Below, piece by piece: positions 20,559 through 34,849 of a DNA stretch of 34,921 nt. Location: contig JAEIOG010000050.1 in the NCBI GenBank assembly GCA_016342495.1, positions 1 to 34,921 on the forward strand, read 5' to 3'. The notes below the pieces were generated by a model. That model saw only the letters and a program-made list of their open reading frames with translations, did no database searches and was not told the origin of the DNA. Both the position numbers and the translations under genes were made by a program. The stretch comes from Phycisphaerae bacterium. GTDB taxonomy: Bacteria; Planctomycetota; Phycisphaerae; Sedimentisphaerales; SM23-30. Each line of letters starts with the position of its first letter. The stretch's first letter is position 1.

Positions 20559-20580
20559 GAGACAAGGCATGCCTTGTCTC
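20559..20580. repeat. Perfect 22-bp palindrome
   Basis: gagacaaggca joined to tgccttgtctc reads identically on both strands with no loop. It lies in the 192-base gap between the methyltransferase and kelch genes (both leftward). It has no T tract. Palindromes of this gagacaaggcatgcc type occur as dispersed repeats in various bacteria, so it is more likely a mobile or REP-like repeat than an operator. Confidence 0.7.
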
Positions 20581-20638: not shown

Positions 20639-21565
20639 TCATTCTTCATTGTCGAATAATGAAGTTGTTGGCGCTGTCTTAGTTTTTTTGGTTTTACGTT
20701 TGCGTATTGGAGTTTGAACGCCCGGTGGATTATAGGCAACAGTGTCGGTAAGGTCGATATTTTGGGTAGATTCAAGTCGGGCGAGGCCCTGTTGGACATA
20801 ATTTTCGGAGATATCGGTAGCCAAATAGCGTCTATTTAGAGTTTTTGCAACCGCAACTGTTGTGCCGGAACCAGAAAATGGATCGAAAACCAGATCTTCG
20901 GGATTGGAAGCGACTTTTATGATTCTTCCGAGAAGTTTTTCGGGCATTTGGCAGCCATGAAAGCCTTTTCGTTCTTTGAAGGTGCCACAGACGCGGGGGA
21001 TATGCCAGGTATCTTCAGAATCCAGGAAGGCATCGGGGATGGCCTGAGGGCGGATGATCCAGGTATCATCGGGGATTTTGCCACGGCCATCGGCACGTTT
21101 ATCGGCATAGGTTGTTTGGCGGGCAGAGGGGACTCTTACTTCTAAGTCATTGAAAGTAAGTGACTTATCATTTTTGGCGAAATAGAAGATATGGGTATGG
21201 CTGCGGGAGAATTTGGCTTTGGTATTTTGGCCAAAGGTGTAATACCAGATAATCCAGTTTCGCATTGTCAGTCCCAATTTGCGGGCAGTTATTTTGATTT
21301 CGGCGGCATATTCGTCGCCAATAGCTATCCAGAACGAGCCATTATCTTTTAAGGCGGCGGTGCACGCGGTCATCCAGTCATTGGTCCATGATACATAGTT
21401 GTCGTAATCGAGGTTGTCTTTGTATTTATCGTAGCTGTAGCCAATATTAAAAGGGGGATCGGCAAAAACCAGATCGATAAAAGGTTCGCCGTTATTTTGT
21501 TTTAACTGTTTTTCTAATATGGAGATACAGTCGCCGTGGATAATTGTGTTTTCGATGGTGCTCAT
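20639..21565 (-). CDS. Solitary DNA methyltransferase, N6_N4_Mtase family (beta-class order)
   Basis: The 308-residue protein carries motif IV DPPF (residues 36-39) before motif [11 protein letters not shown] (D228 in the Asp), the circular order of beta-class amino-methyltransferases. It transfers methyl from SAM to adenine N6 or cytosine N4; DPPF fits adenine or cytosine-N4 members, and the target site is not deducible. A variable region with [14 protein letters not shown] lies between. No restriction endonuclease or specificity gene is adjacent, so it looks like an orphan regulatory or housekeeping methylase. A basic tail ([10 protein letters not shown]) follows the core. No phage or integrase genes flank it. 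Confidence 0.9.
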
Positions 21566-27530: not shown

Positions 27531-29450
27531 TTATGATATTGGCCAACTGCCAAAAGCCTGCTTTTCAAATTTCATGGTTCCATCATCACCTTTGAAGATA
27601 TTAATCCATGCGAACCAGTTATTATCATCGATATCTGGATAATCCAGACGATAGTGGCTGCATCGGCTTTCTTTCCGCATAATAGATGCTTTAAGTTTCA
27701 TCTCAGCACTTATAATCATATTAGCTGTCTCATGAGCCAGCCTGAGTTCGTGCATGTCAGCAGCCCTAAGCAGTGGCATGTGGTGGTCTCGTAGTTCTTC
27801 AATATAAGCCAGAGCGGCTTTTAAGAGATTCTCTTTCTTTATATATAATATGAAATTTGGAATCATAATACCCTGGAGAGTTTGAGTAACCCAGGCAGGG
27901 CCATAGCCAATTTGTCTTTTTAAAGGGGCAAGGATTTCCTCCTGCACTTTACTGATTTTAGCTTTTGTGATTACTGGCATTTCGATGGTTTTACAATATT
28001 CAGCAGCAGCCTCAGCGGCAATTGCGCCTTGGACGGCAGAGCCTGCCAGTGAAGAACCTATCTGGGTGTAAATAGCTCCGGCCATATAAGATCCTAATGC
28101 ATCGCCTGCAGCGTATAGCCCAGGTATGTTTGATTCGCATTTTTCATTAATTGGCACAAGTCCTTCAGATTTATGGATAGCCATACCTGCGGAAGAACCT
28201 CCGACGGATATTCCACGGGGACCTGGGTGGCCTCCTTTGCCGGGGTGTTTGTCATCTGATCTATTATTTGGGTGTCTACCCTGGTCGGGAGGGCCAAAGC
28301 CGGCAGGGCTATTACCATCGGGACGATCACCTGGAGGAGGGAAATCCATGTCAGGGGCACCAGCGGGGGGGCCAAAGTTATTTCCAGGGCCAGGTCTATC
28401 ACCGCCGGGGCGATTACCAGATTCGCCACCGGGTCTGCCTCCGGGAGGGCCGGATTCCTGGAATTCTATGGGGCGATATGGGCCACCTGAAGAATGATTT
28501 TGTGGTCTTAGGCCGGGGCCCATCTCAGTATTGCCGTTTTGGGTTGAGCCAGGATTGCCATTGATATAAGATGAATAATTTTGGTCAACACCTAAATCAT
28601 GGCGTATTCCAATACCGGTTGTGTCAGGTTTTCTTTCAAACATACCGTGCCATCCATCAAAGCAGGCTGCGGGGTTTGTCATTTGTCCGGGGTGGCCATC
28701 GTTCCATTCTTTACCGGTGACTTTGGCTCCAATGTTATATGCCATAATGGTCCCATCATGGGTCAGGTCACAGATGGGGAAACCATTTGGTTTAAAACCG
28801 CCGGCTCCGGTACAAAGAATTACACTTTTGGCTTTGTAAATATGTATTTTTTCCTGGTCCAGACTAAAGCCTGCCGCACCGGCAATTTTGCCATTTTCTT
28901 TGATCAAGTGAGTAATAACAATTCTTTCCTGTATCGGGATATTGCGTTGTTTAATAGGTTTATTAAAAGAGTTGTAATATAAAGGAGAATCAAAGAAGCC
29001 CCATTGTCGGAGCTCATTGACTCTGGCAAGGGAATGTTCGGCCATCTGTTTTGTATAAACTGGGTTGTTTGTTCCTAAGGCTGAGCGCGATACTGCATTG
29101 ACAAATTCATCCAGTGACATTTTGGCATTGGCCGGGTCATAAGCAAAAATTCCTTTGGCAAAAGGTGTCTGGCCTGAAGCGCCAAGTCTTCCTTTGGAAA
29201 CAAGCATGACTTTGGTACCGGCATCGTGAGCTTTTACCGCGGCAAATAATCCAGCCATCCCGCCGCCTATAACAAGGACATCTGTCTGATTTTCCTGATA
29301 TTGCATTTTATCAATATCGATATTCGATTCATTTGCGGCCCAGCTTTTATTATCTGCAAGCGAAGCTAAGGCAGCTATACCGACAGCACCGCCAGCTAAG
29401 GTCATAAACTTTCTTCTGGATATATCTGTGTTTTCTGATGATTTATTCAT
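27531..29450 (-). CDS. Tat-exported FrdA/SdhA-like FAD flavoprotein with Gly/Pro-rich insertion
   Basis: The 639-residue protein has a twin-arginine leader (ISRRKFMTLAGGAVGIAALA) and a dinucleotide-binding motif (DVLVIGGGMAGLFAA). Fumarate-reductase-flavoprotein features follow: LGASGQTPFAKG, VILCTGAGGFKP, NIPGLYAAGDALG, and a C-terminal helical domain with HELRLAHETANMI and RCSHYRLDYP. Residues about 310-412 are an unusual low-complexity Gly/Pro-rich segment (GPPGGRPGGESGNRPGGDRP and similar) placed just before the last FAD-fold strands. The substrate is unknown. It overlaps the membrane cytochrome gene by eight bases and follows the ferredoxin gene, so the three are one operon that probably passes electrons across the membrane to or from this exported enzyme. 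Confidence 0.88.
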   Translation of the reverse strand: MNKSSENTDISRRKFMTLAGGAVGIAALASLADNKSWAANESNIDIDKMQYQENQTDVLVIGGGMAGLFAAVKAHDAGTKVMLVSKGRLGASGQTPFAKGIFAYDPANAKMSLDEFVNAVSRSALGTNNPVYTKQMAEHSLARVNELRQWGFFDSPLYYNSFNKPIKQRNIPIQERIVITHLIKENGKIAGAAGFSLDQEKIHIYKAKSVILCTGAGGFKPNGFPICDLTHDGTIMAYNIGAKVTGKEWNDGHPGQMTNPAACFDGWHGMFERKPDTTGIGIRHDLGVDQNYSSYINGNPGSTQNGNTEMGPGLRPQNHSSGGPYRPIEFQESGPPGGRPGGESGNRPGGDRPGPGNNFGPPAGAPDMDFPPPGDRPDGNSPAGFGPPDQGRHPNNRSDDKHPGKGGHPGPRGISVGGSSAGMAIHKSEGLVPINEKCESNIPGLYAAGDALGSYMAGAIYTQIGSSLAGSAVQGAIAAEAAAEYCKTIEMPVITKAKISKVQEEILAPLKRQIGYGPAWVTQTLQGIMIPNFILYIKKENLLKAALAYIEELRDHHMPLLRAADMHELRLAHETANMIISAEMKLKASIMRKESRCSHYRLDYPDIDDNNWFAWINIFKGDDGTMKFEKQAFGSWPIS

Positions 29451-30090
29451 TTGTTCCCCCTTCGATTTTTGAGGATTTTAATATATAGGTTTTGAGAAGG
29501 AGAAGGATCCCGCCTGCAGCCATAATGCTCATGCATATAGACATGGCACGATCCATGTGGCGGCCAAGCATGATGGCATGTCTGGTAGCGATTAAAATAA
29601 ACATAATTGACAGGATGCCATGGATAACTCTCCATGTTTTATATTTTATTGGAAGCTTATTGCGCAGGAGAGAGGTAACTCCTAAGATGAACATCAGGCA
29701 CCAGGCGATGATGCCAAGGATGACGCCAGGGCTTTCAAAGGTCGTAATTAAGGTTATAAATGCTTCTTTGGGTTCAATTCCAGCTTCAAAATATCTTGGG
29801 AATATAATTAAAAAAGGATGCGCCAAAAGGATAGGGACAAATATGTATCCGATAAGCTTATGGATTTTTAATGCTTTGGTAAGATTATAATCTTTTAGAA
29901 TGTTCTTGCTGGTGCGAGCCAGGAAAAATTGGCCCAGCATCAAGGAAAATGCTATTATTGTCAAAACTGAAATAGAATCTTTTAATGCTGTTCGCTGGGG
30001 AAGGTCATTTAAGGACCATAATAACAGCGGCAAACCAATAAAAGTCAGGCTCATCGAAAAAAGGTAACATTTTTTATTTGTTTTAATCAT
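29443..30090 (-). CDS. Ferric-reductase-like bis-heme membrane protein
   Basis: I start at the ATG at 30090, two bases after the ferredoxin stop, with GGGG upstream; a GTG twelve bases further would overlap the ferredoxin gene. The 215-residue protein has about six membrane helices. Two of them hold His pairs each separated by 13 residues, H-KLIGYIFVPILLA-H and H-GILSIMFILIATR-H, the signature for two b-type haems in the ferric reductase/NOX/MsrQ superfamily. No flavin or NADPH domain follows, so an outside partner must supply or take electrons; the adjacent ferredoxin and exported flavoprotein are obvious candidates. The stop overlaps the flavoprotein start. Confidence 0.87.
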   Translation of the reverse strand: MIKTNKKCYLFSMSLTFIGLPLLLWSLNDLPQRTALKDSISVLTIIAFSLMLGQFFLARTSKNILKDYNLTKALKIHKLIGYIFVPILLAHPFLIIFPRYFEAGIEPKEAFITLITTFESPGVILGIIAWCLMFILGVTSLLRNKLPIKYKTWRVIHGILSIMFILIATRHAIMLGRHMDRAMSICMSIMAAGGILLLLKTYILKSSKIEGGTNE

Positions 30091-30092
30091 TT

Positions 30093-30308
30093 TTAACCCC
30101 ACGAAACTATAACAGGAATAGATTTTTCAGGTGAAATAGTAATAGCATCCACCGGACAGTACATCCGGCACAAATGGCATATCTGGCAATCGGCAGGATA
30201 TTTTATGAATGCTTTTTTGGTTTTTGGATCCAGGGCAATAACATCTGTCGGGCAGGTTTGCACGCAGATGCCACAACCGATACAGCCATTAATTTGTTTG
30301 ATAGTCAT
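30093..30308 (-). CDS. 2x[4Fe-4S] ferredoxin
   Basis: The 71-residue protein has two complete cluster motifs, C-IG-C-GI-C-VQT-CP and C-QI-C-HL-C-RMY-CP, with TDVIA and VDAITIS after them as in bacterial 8Fe ferredoxins. No signal peptide is present, so it is cytoplasmic. AAAGG precedes the ATG. As the first gene of the operon with the bis-heme membrane protein and exported flavoprotein, it is the probable cytoplasmic electron donor or acceptor of that chain. Confidence 0.95.
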   Translation of the reverse strand: MTIKQINGCIGCGICVQTCPTDVIALDPKTKKAFIKYPADCQICHLCRMYCPVDAITISPEKSIPVIVSWG

Positions 30309-30465
30309 AAGTTGCCTTTACTATTATTAAAAGTTTTAGATATTAATTTTTCAACACTTCTACAATTTTAGACGTCATTATTTAAGCTGCCTTGTGCTTA
30401 TTTATAATAATTTTTGAAATAATTACCGAAATTTATGTTGGTACAAATGTATGATGATGCTAAAG

Positions 30466-30479
30466 TTGATAATTATCAA
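30466..30479. promoter_or_regulatory. Perfect 14-bp palindrome between divergent operons
   Basis: TTGATAATTATCAA reads the same on both strands and lies in the 220-base gap between the ferredoxin operon (leftward) and the sigma-factor operon (rightward), 49 bases before the sigma ATG. A shared operator is plausible. AT-rich palindromes also arise by chance. Confidence 0.4.
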
Positions 30480-30528
30480 ACTGGATTTTTATTAGCTTAA
30501 ATCTGTTTCACTGGCCGAAAAAAAAGAT

Positions 30529-31071
30529 ATGTTTATCGATGAATTACAAAAAGGTTCGCAGCAGGCATTCAAAAAACTGATCGAGATGTACAGCCATGAT
30601 GTTGTCAAAAGCTGCTATAGTTTTGTGAAAAATCAGGAAGATGCCGAAGATATTGCTCAGGAAGTTTTTTTAGATGTTTATCGATCAATAAAAAGTTTTA
30701 AGAAGGATTCTGAGCTTAAAACCTGGATAATTCGGATCGCTATTAATGAATCTCTGGATTTTCTTCGTAAGCAAAAACGTAAAAAGCGGATTGGGGACTT
30801 GAAAGAGCTGTTTTTGCATAAGAATAAACCAGATATTGGCCCTGGTAAGCAGTTGGAAGATGAAGAACGCCGAAAGATATTGTACCAGCAGATCGCAAAA
30901 TTGCCCGAAAATCAAAAAATTGCGATGATTTTGAGTCAATATGATAAACAGTCCAATAAAAGCATCGCTGAGATCATGAAAACCAGCGAATCGGCGGTAG
31001 AATCGCTCCTCCATCGAGCCCGAGAAAATCTGAAAAAGAGACTTCAGAAAATTTTTGAAAAAAATATATAA
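30529..31071 (+). CDS. ECF-type RNA polymerase sigma factor
   Basis: The 180-residue protein has sigma region 2 (SYSFVKNQEDAEDIAQEVFLDVY, KTWIIRIAINESLDFLRKQKRKKR) and region 4 (LPENQKIAMILSQYDKQSNKSIAEIMKTSESAVESLLHRARENLKKRL), typical of RpoE-like ECF factors. It heads an operon with a small membrane protein in the usual anti-sigma place, a Spy/CpxP-like protein and then the CotH protein. The ribosome site is weak and A-rich. It probably controls its own operon and perhaps the divergent redox genes in response to an envelope signal (inference). Confidence 0.95.
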   Translation: MFIDELQKGSQQAFKKLIEMYSHDVVKSCYSFVKNQEDAEDIAQEVFLDVYRSIKSFKKDSELKTWIIRIAINESLDFLRKQKRKKRIGDLKELFLHKNKPDIGPGKQLEDEERRKILYQQIAKLPENQKIAMILSQYDKQSNKSIAEIMKTSESAVESLLHRARENLKKRLQKIFEKNI

Positions 31072-31137
31072 TTGGCCACAGGGTAGGAAAATAGATGGCG
31101 TCTAATATTATGAGAGACCTGAAAAGTAGGGTTTATT

Positions 31138-31461
31138 ATGAAAATGAATAAGAAAATTGAAAAAGAAATAGAACTGACACTGCAAAGGCTTGGTGATGAC
31201 ACTAATATAGAGGTAAGCCCAATGTTTGCAGACATGCTAAATGGTAAAATCGCCAAAATGCATACTGCCAGGGGCGTTGACTATCGCAGCAAAAGTTTTT
31301 ATCCGGTTATTATCATATTACTGGTAGTTATGAATATTTCAGCTTGCGTGGTCAGTTTTACTGGTAATAGCCAAACTGATCAGAGTAGCGATTATCAAAA
31401 CAGTGTGCTGGCAAGTGAATATTCAATAGGCCAGAATACTTTTTCGTCTTTTTTAGATTGA
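31138..31461 (+). CDS. Small single-pass membrane protein in anti-sigma position
   Basis: The 107-residue protein has a charged N-terminal cytoplasmic part (about 1-57: KIEKEIELTLQRLGDD, SPMFADMLNGKIAKM), one membrane helix (FYPVIIILLVVMNISACVVSF) and a short polar tail of about 35 residues. No HxxxCxxC zinc anti-sigma motif is present. Position right after the ECF gene, membrane topology and size suggest an anti-sigma factor, but I recognise no family. GTAGGG precedes the ATG. Confidence 0.7.
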   Translation: MKMNKKIEKEIELTLQRLGDDTNIEVSPMFADMLNGKIAKMHTARGVDYRSKSFYPVIIILLVVMNISACVVSFTGNSQTDQSSDYQNSVLASEYSIGQNTFSSFLD

Positions 31462-31471
31462 ATGGATTGTA

Positions 31472-32008
31472 ATGGATTATTTTACAAAAAATAAAATGTT
31501 ATTCTGGTGTGTAATAGCTTTGGTTATACTGAATGTTTTGACATTGACTGCATTTTGGATGGGGAGGCCACCTAGGGGGCAAAGACCACCAGGCCATAAT
31601 CGTGCTGGCCAAAATGTTCTTGAAGACAAGCTTCAACTTACTGACATTCAATCAGATAAATTTGAGCAAATACGACAGAAACATTTCAGTGTTATCCGTC
31701 CTATGCAAGACGACATGCTTAATATCCAGATAGAATTAGTGCATGAAATTTTCAATGCAAAACCGGATCAGGAAAAAATAAAGAATTTGCTGGCTCAGCT
31801 CGAAATAAAACATGGCCAGTTTGAAACTCAGCTTATCCAACATTTTCAACAGTTAAGAGATGTCTGTAACGCAGATCAAATGGAAGAACTTAAAAATATG
31901 CTGATCAATCTGGTAGAATCAACCCGCCCGATAGCCCCAGTAGACCGGGAGCAGCAAGGCCCGCCCGGAGAGCCAGGGCCAGGGCATAGGCCCCCACCAC
32001 GTCGTTAA
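31472..32008 (+). CDS. Spy/CpxP-like periplasmic sensor protein with Gly/Pro-rich ends
   Basis: The 178-residue protein has an N-terminal membrane anchor (FWCVIALVILNVLTLTAFWMG), a Pro/Arg-rich linker (RPPRGQRPPGHNRAG), a helical core with LTXXQ-type features (LQLTDIQSDKFEQIRQKHF; then EELKNMLINLV) and a Pro/Gly-rich tail (GPPGEPGPGHRPPPRR). It resembles the Metal_resist/CpxP/Spy group of periplasmic stress sensors or chaperones, often encoded with ECF sigma factors. It starts 10 bases after the previous stop with no strong ribosome site. Its Gly/Pro-rich ends recall the insertion in the flavoprotein. Confidence 0.75.
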   Translation: MDYFTKNKMLFWCVIALVILNVLTLTAFWMGRPPRGQRPPGHNRAGQNVLEDKLQLTDIQSDKFEQIRQKHFSVIRPMQDDMLNIQIELVHEIFNAKPDQEKIKNLLAQLEIKHGQFETQLIQHFQQLRDVCNADQMEELKNMLINLVESTRPIAPVDREQQGPPGEPGPGHRPPPRR

Positions 32009-32072
32009 AAACGACAAATTAAGATAATTTAAATAGCGATAAAAAGCTTAATACGTGAAATGTGCGCGCTGA

Positions 32073-32089
32073 TATACCCAATGGGTATA
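32073..32089. promoter_or_regulatory. 17-bp palindrome upstream of the CotH gene
   Basis: TATACCCA and TGGGTATA flank a single central A, giving 8-bp perfect arms. It lies 122 bases before the CotH ATG in the 203-base gap. It could be an operator of a separately regulated CotH promoter; it has no T run, so it is unlikely to be a terminator. Confidence 0.4.
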
Positions 32090-32211
32090 GTTTTATCTGG
32101 CAGAGCCAACTTTTAAGCCTTGTAGCATATAAACTCAAAGGCGGACAAAATGGAAAAACTCAATTGTTATGAGTATATAATTCAAACCATCGGAGAAAAA
32201 GGAGATCTATT

Positions 32212-34455
32212 ATGAAGGTTCAAAACATTGCTTATTGTACGAAAATAAATCTTTTAATCATAATTGCATTATTGTCTACTTCGTTATTTGCGGGTGACTT
32301 TTATGAAAATGATGCGATAAATATTATAGGATTAAAATTTGCTGATGATAACTGGGATGCCGAATTGGATGCAATATATGAGAAGGACAGTGACAGCGAC
32401 GGTGAATATGACAGGCTTTCATGTACCGCGACATTAAATGGCATAGAATATGAACAAGTCGGCGTAAGATACAAAGGCAACAGTTCCTATAGTGCAAACA
32501 ATGCCAAAAATCCTTTTAATATAAAACTTGATTATATGCTTGAACAGGACTATGAAGGTTATGGAACATTGAAACTGTCGAATGTACATAAGGATCCTTC
32601 TTTTGTCAGAGAAACTCTCTCATATGAAATTGCCCGAAAATATATGCCTGCGTCAAAAGCAAACTATATGAAAGTTTATATTTATAACTACAGCAGTAGC
32701 ACATATGTATACCATGGTCTTTATACCAATGTTGAAGCTGTTGACAAAAAGTTTTTTGCAGAGCATTTTTCCTCTAATGACAATGCGAGGTTTAAGTGTA
32801 ACCCAAGCGATACATGGTCACCTCAAACAGGAGGAACTGGTGCATCCTTAGATTATCTTGGCACTGATGCATCACTTTATTCTGGGTCTTATCAATTGAA
32901 AACAGATGACATAGCTCACTGGGATGATCTGATAGCTTTAACTTATGATATTAAATATGATACCCCAAATTTAGATAATGCTATTGACCTTGATCAGGCT
33001 ATCTGGATGTTGGCCTATGATAATGTTTTAGTTAATTTAGACAGCTATATCGGCCCTTCCAGGCAGAATTATTATCTTTATAAATGTAATGATAACCGAT
33101 GGGCAACAATTCTCTGGGATCTGAATGAATCTTTCGGAGGATTCACGCAGGTTGATTCTGGTGGTGGACATCCAGGACCGGGCCAAACTGATATTTCCAA
33201 TCTGGACCCTTTGCTCAGGCAAGGAGATAGTGGTTGGCCATTGTTGAATATCATTTTAAGCGATTCGACCTATAAAAATATGTACATAGCTCACATGCGA
33301 ACAATAATCAAAGACAATTTCTCTAATGGCTGGTACAAAACCAGGGCGCTTGAAATTCAAAGTGTAATCGATTCCGATGTTGCAGCTGATACAAATAAAA
33401 TCTATACATATTATGATTGTGTAAATAATATTGATTATAATCGAGGGGGTGTAACTGGCATTGCTGAGCTGATGGGGAAAAGAGTTACTTATCTTAATAG
33501 CCAATCAGCTTTAACAGCAACTGTTCCAACAATCACAAGCATTAATGTTTCATCTTACAATCCAGCAGCCAACAGTAGCGTTTTAGTCAATGTTGATGCA
33601 AACAATGCAAATACTGTGACACTGGCATATCGATATGCTAACACTGGTAAGTTTGTGAAATTGCAGATGAGCGATGATGGCAATAATAATGACGGCACAG
33701 CAGGAGATGGGACCTATGGCGTGTCATTACCAATCGCAAATACCAATGTCCAATGTTATTTTTATGTGGAAAATAATAATGCGGGTGTATTTTCTCCAGA
33801 ACGGGCAGAACATGAATTCTATACGCTTGAAGTTTCTCAAACTTCGGTGGTCATTAATGAATTCATGGCCGAAAATGATACTACTATTCAAGACCCTGAT
33901 GGCGGGGCTGGATACCCCGACTGGATAGAATTGTATAATCCTGGTCAGGGGACTGTTGATCTGGGTGGCATGTATTTAACTGATGATTTAAGTCAGCCAA
34001 CTCAATGGCAAATACCAGAAGGAATAAGTATTGCCCCAGGGGACTATGTGTTATTCTGGGCTGATAATGATGAAGATCAGGGTGCTATGCATACTAATTT
34101 CAAACTGAGCAAATCTGGAGAGGCTATTGGATTATTTGATAGTGATGCAAATGGCAACGCTTTAATAGATTCCATTACTTATGGTTTACAGACTGCCGAT
34201 GTTTCCTATGGCCGAATAGGGGATGGTGATGATAACTGGCAGGCAATCACAAGTTCATCACCGGGTGGAGCCAATCCTTCGCTAAGCGATTTAGATGGAA
34301 ATGGCGTGGTTGATTTGCTGGATTTTGCTTTATTGTGTTCGCATTGGCAAAATAAGGATTGCGGTGATTGTGATGGCGTAGATATAACAGGTGATGGTTC
34401 TGTTGATATAGATGATCTCTTAGTATTCTGTACAGATTGGATGAAAGGACTTTAA
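32212..34455 (+). CDS. Secreted CotH-kinase family protein with lamin-tail domain and dockerin
   Basis: The 747-residue protein has a signal peptide (cleavage near LFAG) and a CotH-type domain (about 35-430: VGVRYKGNSSY, KNPFNIKLDY, LKLSNVHKDPSFVRETLSYEIAR, GLYTNVEAVDKKFF, and ILWDLNESFGGF with D303). A beta-sandwich linker (about 440-540), a lamin-tail domain (about 545-690, VVINEFMAEN...GYPDWIELYNPG) and a two-repeat dockerin-like end (DLDGNGVVDLLDFALL...HW; DITGDGSVDIDDLLVF...W) follow. CotH proteins are atypical protein kinases first known from Bacillus spore coats; here the target is unknown. A GGGHPGPG stretch sits right after the catalytic loop. AAGGAG precedes the ATG. Confidence 0.92.
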   Translation: MKVQNIAYCTKINLLIIIALLSTSLFAGDFYENDAINIIGLKFADDNWDAELDAIYEKDSDSDGEYDRLSCTATLNGIEYEQVGVRYKGNSSYSANNAKNPFNIKLDYMLEQDYEGYGTLKLSNVHKDPSFVRETLSYEIARKYMPASKANYMKVYIYNYSSSTYVYHGLYTNVEAVDKKFFAEHFSSNDNARFKCNPSDTWSPQTGGTGASLDYLGTDASLYSGSYQLKTDDIAHWDDLIALTYDIKYDTPNLDNAIDLDQAIWMLAYDNVLVNLDSYIGPSRQNYYLYKCNDNRWATILWDLNESFGGFTQVDSGGGHPGPGQTDISNLDPLLRQGDSGWPLLNIILSDSTYKNMYIAHMRTIIKDNFSNGWYKTRALEIQSVIDSDVAADTNKIYTYYDCVNNIDYNRGGVTGIAELMGKRVTYLNSQSALTATVPTITSINVSSYNPAANSSVLVNVDANNANTVTLAYRYANTGKFVKLQMSDDGNNNDGTAGDGTYGVSLPIANTNVQCYFYVENNNAGVFSPERAEHEFYTLEVSQTSVVINEFMAENDTTIQDPDGGAGYPDWIELYNPGQGTVDLGGMYLTDDLSQPTQWQIPEGISIAPGDYVLFWADNDEDQGAMHTNFKLSKSGEAIGLFDSDANGNALIDSITYGLQTADVSYGRIGDGDDNWQAITSSSPGGANPSLSDLDGNGVVDLLDFALLCSHWQNKDCGDCDGVDITGDGSVDIDDLLVFCTDWMKGL

Positions 34456-34483: not shown

Positions 34484-34849
34484 GAAGTTTCAGAGGAATG
34501 TTATTTCACTATAACCACTCTGCCTGCTGGAGCCACTGATTATGATATTGATTATGGCTATTTCTGGACAAACACCAGTGCTTACTTCGGCGGGGACAGT
34601 CAAGAATATTATTATGCCTGGTATGTAGCTTTTGGAAGTGCCGTTGGTCAGGATGGAGCAGATTTCCATGGTGCTGGTGCCGCTAGATTTGATACCAAAA
34701 TTGAAGGCGGGCCGCTGGGCGAAGGCGGCGAACGCTATTATAACTATGTTCGGCTGGTTCGAGGTGCTTCTACCGCTACCTGCCAGCAACTGGTCAATAG
34801 CGGGGACTTTAATGCTGATTGTAAAATCAATCTTTTAGATTTTGCGTAA
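34484..34849 (+). pseudogene. Broken Lcl C-terminal (DUF1566)-like protein with dockerin-like tail
   Basis: An open frame of 121 codons after an in-frame TAA at 34481 has no start but clear content: YGYFWTNTSAYFGGDS, EYYYAWYVAFGS and RYYNYVRLVRG are typical of Lcl C-terminal domains. It is followed by GDFNADCKINLLDFA, the beginning of the half-dockerin tail. The frame stops (TAA 34847-34849) exactly where LAxxW should follow. That piece (NNLAMWSKF) continues in another frame from 34849, so a frameshift has cut it. The N-terminal part is missing, so this is a decayed 3' gene fragment. Confidence 0.7.

Follow-up and report, generated by a model that had tools for sequence, protein, structure and literature searches.

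The window (the whole stretch of 34,921 nucleotides analysed here) holds all seven genes that an earlier sequence-only reading had proposed, at the positions it had assigned, as judged from the open reading frame list and Pfam matches; the latter also agreed with the gene families it had named, including the ECF, Spy-like and CotH assignments. Three genes lie on the minus strand: a flavoprotein gene (27531..29450; FAD_binding_2, 79 bits, and Succ_DH_flav_C, 48 bits), a ferric-reductase-like gene, hereafter FerRed (29443..30102; Ferric_reduct, PF01794, 57 bits), and a gene for a 71-aa 2x[4Fe-4S] ferredoxin (30093..30308). They overlap, as had been noted, by 8 bp (flavoprotein/FerRed) and 10 bp (FerRed/ferredoxin). 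The second operon diverges from the first across an intergenic region of 220 bases (30309..30528), an arrangement that had likewise been read correctly. On the plus strand it carries genes for an ECF sigma factor (30529..31071; Sigma70_r2/r4_2), a small membrane protein, predicted to have a single hydrophobic segment and a candidate for an anti-sigma factor (31138..31461), a candidate sensor of CnrX/Spy fold (31472..32008; Metal_resist, PF13801, 54.6 bits) and a CotH protein (32212..34455; CotH, PF08757, 136 bits against a cut-off of 23.8, and LTD, 68 bits). Directly 3' of cotH lies a feature that the earlier reading had overlooked, a 5'-truncated Lcl_C remnant of the PF07603 type (34484..34849, plus strand; 61.5% identity, E 2e-20) ending in a truncated dockerin-like stretch.

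The 14-bp palindrome reported in the divergent gap, TTGATAATTATCAA, is present at 30466-30479, but when the gap was shuffled 2000 times, 5.9% of the shuffled sequences had a palindrome of at least that length; its length was therefore not above chance and we rejected it as an operator. It was missing from the upstream stretches compared at four other loci (L111, L112, L113 and L114). Elsewhere in the window, a 22-bp perfect palindrome, GAGACAAGGCATGCCTTGTCTC (20559-20580), adjoins a DNA methylase-like ORF (20639-21565).

The exported flavoenzyme

Pfam and fold matches revealed the FAD fold of the superfamily in the flavoprotein, whose closest solved relatives were AprA, PAPS reductase and SdhA/FrdA, with AprA as the best PDB profile match (E 1.6e-32) and 8a8o as the top fold match. 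The Tat signal ascribed to it was borne out by the motif SRRKFM, and a Tat-like motif was found in nearly all complete members. Judged by these features, the protein is a FAD enzyme of the AprA/FrdA superfamily with predicted Tat export. Its H253 aligned with the active-site His of the HPT type, and the His was kept in 42 of 43 rows. At three loci (L019, L048 and L056) tatC lies directly beside the flavoenzyme gene, accompanied in L019 and L048 by TatA-like genes; L019 encodes three flavoenzyme paralogues, two without a Tat signal and the third with one.

The capping region could not be aligned with the AprA/FrdA relatives; in its place stands a Gly/Pro-rich (GPP) segment at about residues 325-415, of which residues 333-409 were unordered in the AlphaFold model of the window protein. 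Gly/Pro enrichment of this region relative to the rest of the protein was seen in nearly every member parsed, the weakest contrast being that of L090 (0.17 versus 0.14). In the flavoproteins of fumarate reductase and succinate dehydrogenase, the capping domain carries a catalytic Arg in an RDxxSR-like motif; a motif of this form was found in the cap region of none of the flavoenzyme members. The enzyme resembles AprBA and archaeal PAPS reductase in its FAD domain, its C-terminal helical domain and the separate 2x[4Fe-4S] protein encoded nearby. It differs from them in its predicted Tat export, in the GPP segment at the capping region, in the membrane haem protein encoded in its operon and in a score (86.1 bits) far below the AprA cut-off of NCBIfam TIGR02061 (641.75 bits).

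The flavoprotein was not found in any of 160 further genomes from the order to which the window belongs and is 52-76% identical to members across many other phyla, which indicates that it was probably acquired by transfer. A search for viral relatives, as a sign of viral spread of the flavoenzyme, found none.

The membrane conduit and the place of the ferredoxin

Gene neighbourhoods were compared at 82 loci, namely the best 80 of 161 relatives in named genomes plus the Paracoccus and Ilyobacter plasmid loci; since the 80 kept were the closest relatives, the window's arrangement may be over-represented among them. By tblastn, the ferredoxin was present in 78 of the 82 loci and a FerRed-type protein in 77. 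The two HX13H pairs recognised by the sequence-only reading in the membrane protein (residues 81/95 and 161/175) were kept in 55 of 56 homologues, and the FerRed protein has the PF01794 bis-haem conduit of MsrPQ, its partner in the window being a FAD enzyme and not the molybdopterin enzyme MsrP. The ferredoxin of the window has no evident signal peptide, and a double CX2CX2CX3C pattern occurred in 50 of 51 ferredoxins. As far as gene content and distribution tell, the triad of ferredoxin, ferric-reductase-like protein and exported flavoprotein is a conserved, transferred module.

At 21 loci FerRed is replaced by a form with FAD/NAD-binding domains (Pfam on one member), through which cytosolic NAD(P)H can feed the conduit. 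The AprA/SdhA superfamily includes enzymes running in either direction, which speaks for an exported dehydrogenase that passes electrons inward; the FAD/NAD-binding form, with NAD(P)H as donor, speaks against it, and we regard this direction as very unlikely.

The earlier proposal of an electron path from ferredoxin through the membrane to the FAD enzyme held for its parts, as all three gene types, the haem pairs and the Tat motif are there. Their order is in doubt: the membrane protein can be FerRed, FerRed with FAD/NAD-binding domains, or an FMN_bind/Fer4_5 protein, and with each of the three the ferredoxin was kept beside the flavoenzyme, which makes the sequence ferredoxin, haem, FAD doubtful. 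This same retention, together with AprA being the best PDB profile match and having in AprB a 2x[4Fe-4S] partner, suggests that the ferredoxin may be an AprB-like partner, exported by the Tat route with the flavoenzyme as a hitch-hiker, so that electrons would pass from the membrane protein to the ferredoxin and then to FAD. The ferredoxin could also act in the cytoplasm as electron donor to the membrane protein, and we consider the two roles about equally likely; the choice touches only the order of the chain and leaves the interpretation given below otherwise intact.

Extracytosolic fumarate-reductase-like enzymes and MsrQ-like clusters, the latter defined by flavinylation, have been described (PMC8238504), and the window module shares with these systems an exported PF00890 flavoenzyme, a PF01794 bis-haem conduit and, at some loci, a PF00175 NAD domain. 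Unlike them, it has no FMN_bind protein, no FMN_bind match being obtained among the nine window proteins scanned by Pfam. An FMN_bind/Fer4_5 protein is present in Ilyobacter (near L019), with a related gene in L056.

The ECF unit, CotH and Lcl_C

The small membrane protein had no Pfam match and is a candidate anti-sigma factor from its CnrY-like position and topology. The sensor candidate is membrane-anchored with a GPP-rich tail; CnrX was its top fold match, with a weak E of 0.06, and ZraP/Spy folds also matched. The operon thus resembles CnrYXH in having an ECF sigma factor, a small membrane protein and a membrane-anchored CnrX-fold protein, a likeness drawn from fold and operon content, and differs from it in the GPP tail of the sensor and in the genes that follow, CotH or Lcl_C. 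A metal or envelope-stress response, in which the CnrX-like sensor would detect a metal reduced by the exported flavoenzyme, would agree with these fold matches, with the PF13801 family of the sensor and with the link of PF01794 clusters to iron reduction (PMC8238504). The recurrent gene set, however, has no metal transporter, and the neighbours Lcl_C, CotH and VTC suggest work at the surface, so that we find this explanation distinctly unlikely.

The trio of ECF, small membrane protein and sensor genes accompanies the triad in only 3 of the 82 loci (L040, L072 and L091); L091 repeats the divergent layout of the window and L040 is one same-strand run. In the window's order the trio also occurs without the triad, beside Lcl_C (L111 and L112) or CotH (L113), and the L115 stretch has only the Spy-like and CotH genes of the unit. 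Within this order, relatives of the window's Spy were found in genomes that have no flavoprotein.

CotH of the window is a secreted CotH-family protein with an LTD domain and a weak dockerin-like match (18.8 bits, below the cut-off), and its own genome has an intact Lcl_C gene on another contig (L100, contig C90), encoding C-terminal EF-hands and a GPP tail. By tblastn, CotH was found in 22 and Lcl_C in 23 of the 82 triad loci, followed by a small GPP protein (18), VTC (13) and DUF4956 (12), with at least one scored accessory gene in 51 loci and none in 31; EF-hand proteins and GPP-bearing sensors also recurred near the triad. Chance placement of CotH was rejected by a control on the host genomes: within 9 kb of the flavoenzyme in 40 loci, 19 CotH genes were seen versus about 0.31 expected from the density in the 40 host genomes (74 matches to CotH, in a total of about 190.8 Mb), about 60 times chance. 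To account for the distribution of CotH on the flavoenzyme tree, at least 12 changes of state are required, indicating that the association of CotH with the triad is not a single inherited event. CotH was missing from 13 of the 40 host genomes. Lcl_C was present in 34 of these 40 and in 1 of 14 control genomes, counts that refer to whole genomes and not to proximity.

In Firmicutes, CotH, polyphosphate polymerase and DUF4956 are known as accessory genes in pel clusters (PMC7112168), and CotH, VTC and DUF4956 are likewise repeatedly found as a group next to the triad at several loci; here, unlike in pel clusters, they are tied to the redox triad, Lcl_C and GPP sensors, and the window itself has no VTC or DUF4956 match. 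The PF07603/DUF1566 domain of the Legionella collagen-like protein Lcl (PMC11162425) is recurrent in triad loci, where, unlike in Lcl, no true collagen repeats were noticed and some copies have EF-hands and GPP tails.

Separable modules and their association

The sequence-only reading had joined both operons into one envelope system, to be checked by neighbourhood co-occurrence. Part of this stood, as CotH recurs by the triad far above chance and the trio joins the triad at three loci; on the other hand, the trio and the triad are mostly apart. The rarity of the trio in triad loci, the Spy relatives in genomes without the flavoprotein and the hosts without CotH argue for separable modules rather than an obligate system. 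From gene neighbourhoods, then, the redox triad and the ECF/CotH unit are separable modules that are repeatedly associated, and one regulon for both operons is plausible. No report of this gene combination was found in the open-access literature, and a word search of the main text of PMC8238504 gave no mention of CotH or EF-hand.

As a whole, we slightly favour the explanation that an outward-electron reductase module has been co-selected with a CnrYXH-like surface-protein unit. The minus-strand operon would be a transferable extracytoplasmic reductase module, in which the bis-haem FerRed protein would carry cytoplasmic reducing equivalents across the membrane to the Tat-exported FAD enzyme, which would reduce an envelope substrate. 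The plus-strand unit, with its putative anti-sigma factor and CnrX-fold sensor, may switch on secreted surface proteins, now CotH and formerly also Lcl_C, and we propose that a surface layer served by both modules is the reason for their co-selection. This explanation draws on the constancy of the ferredoxin and FerRed-type proteins, the FAD/NAD-binding form and TatC beside the enzyme; on the enrichment of CotH and the changes of its label on the flavoenzyme tree, the Lcl_C counts and the L091 and L040 layouts; and on the trio beside Lcl_C or CotH in the order, the weak CnrX fold match and the Lcl_C remnant after cotH. Against it count the 31 loci without accessory genes, the CotH-less hosts, the few loci with the trio, the chance-level palindrome and the failure to find a shared promoter motif.

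Alternatively, the transferred triad may have landed by accident beside a resident ECF-CotH-Lcl_C locus. The lack of the flavoprotein in the 160 other genomes of the order and the occurrence there of the trio with Lcl_C or CotH and without the triad are in line with such accidental neighbours, but in other phyla the surroundings of the triad are enriched in CotH and Lcl_C, and the combination is repeated in L091 and L040, which makes accident somewhat unlikely.

At least two [GP]PP/PP[GP] motifs were found in 9 of 14 LytS, 6 of 27 HisKA kinases, 4 of 4 Spy-like, 11 of 18 small and 10 of 17 EF-hand proteins, versus 10 of 677 of the rest; the by-family comparison (50/117 versus 10/677) involves families partly picked post hoc and members that are not independent, and is suggestive only. 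Enrichment did not differ with distance from the flavoenzyme (9/629 near versus 15/781 far). That the GPP segments of the flavoenzyme, of three unrelated sensor classes and of several secreted partners form one functional code, for instance a polyproline-type contact by which redox enzyme, sensors and CotH, Lcl_C and EF-hand surface proteins act on one matrix, we consider unlikely.

Taken together, the redox triad beside the CotH module, with recurrence of the same partners in unrelated bacteria, suggests a redox system of the cell envelope that is uncharacterised and has been widely transferred. Its MsrQ-like route, which in the window shows no flavinylated partner, is an addition to those described. 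The conserved exported reductase family, present in many phyla and found time and again with CotH, Lcl_C and GPP-bearing sensors, offers a concrete entry to the roles of CotH-family secreted proteins and DUF1566 proteins outside spores and Legionella.
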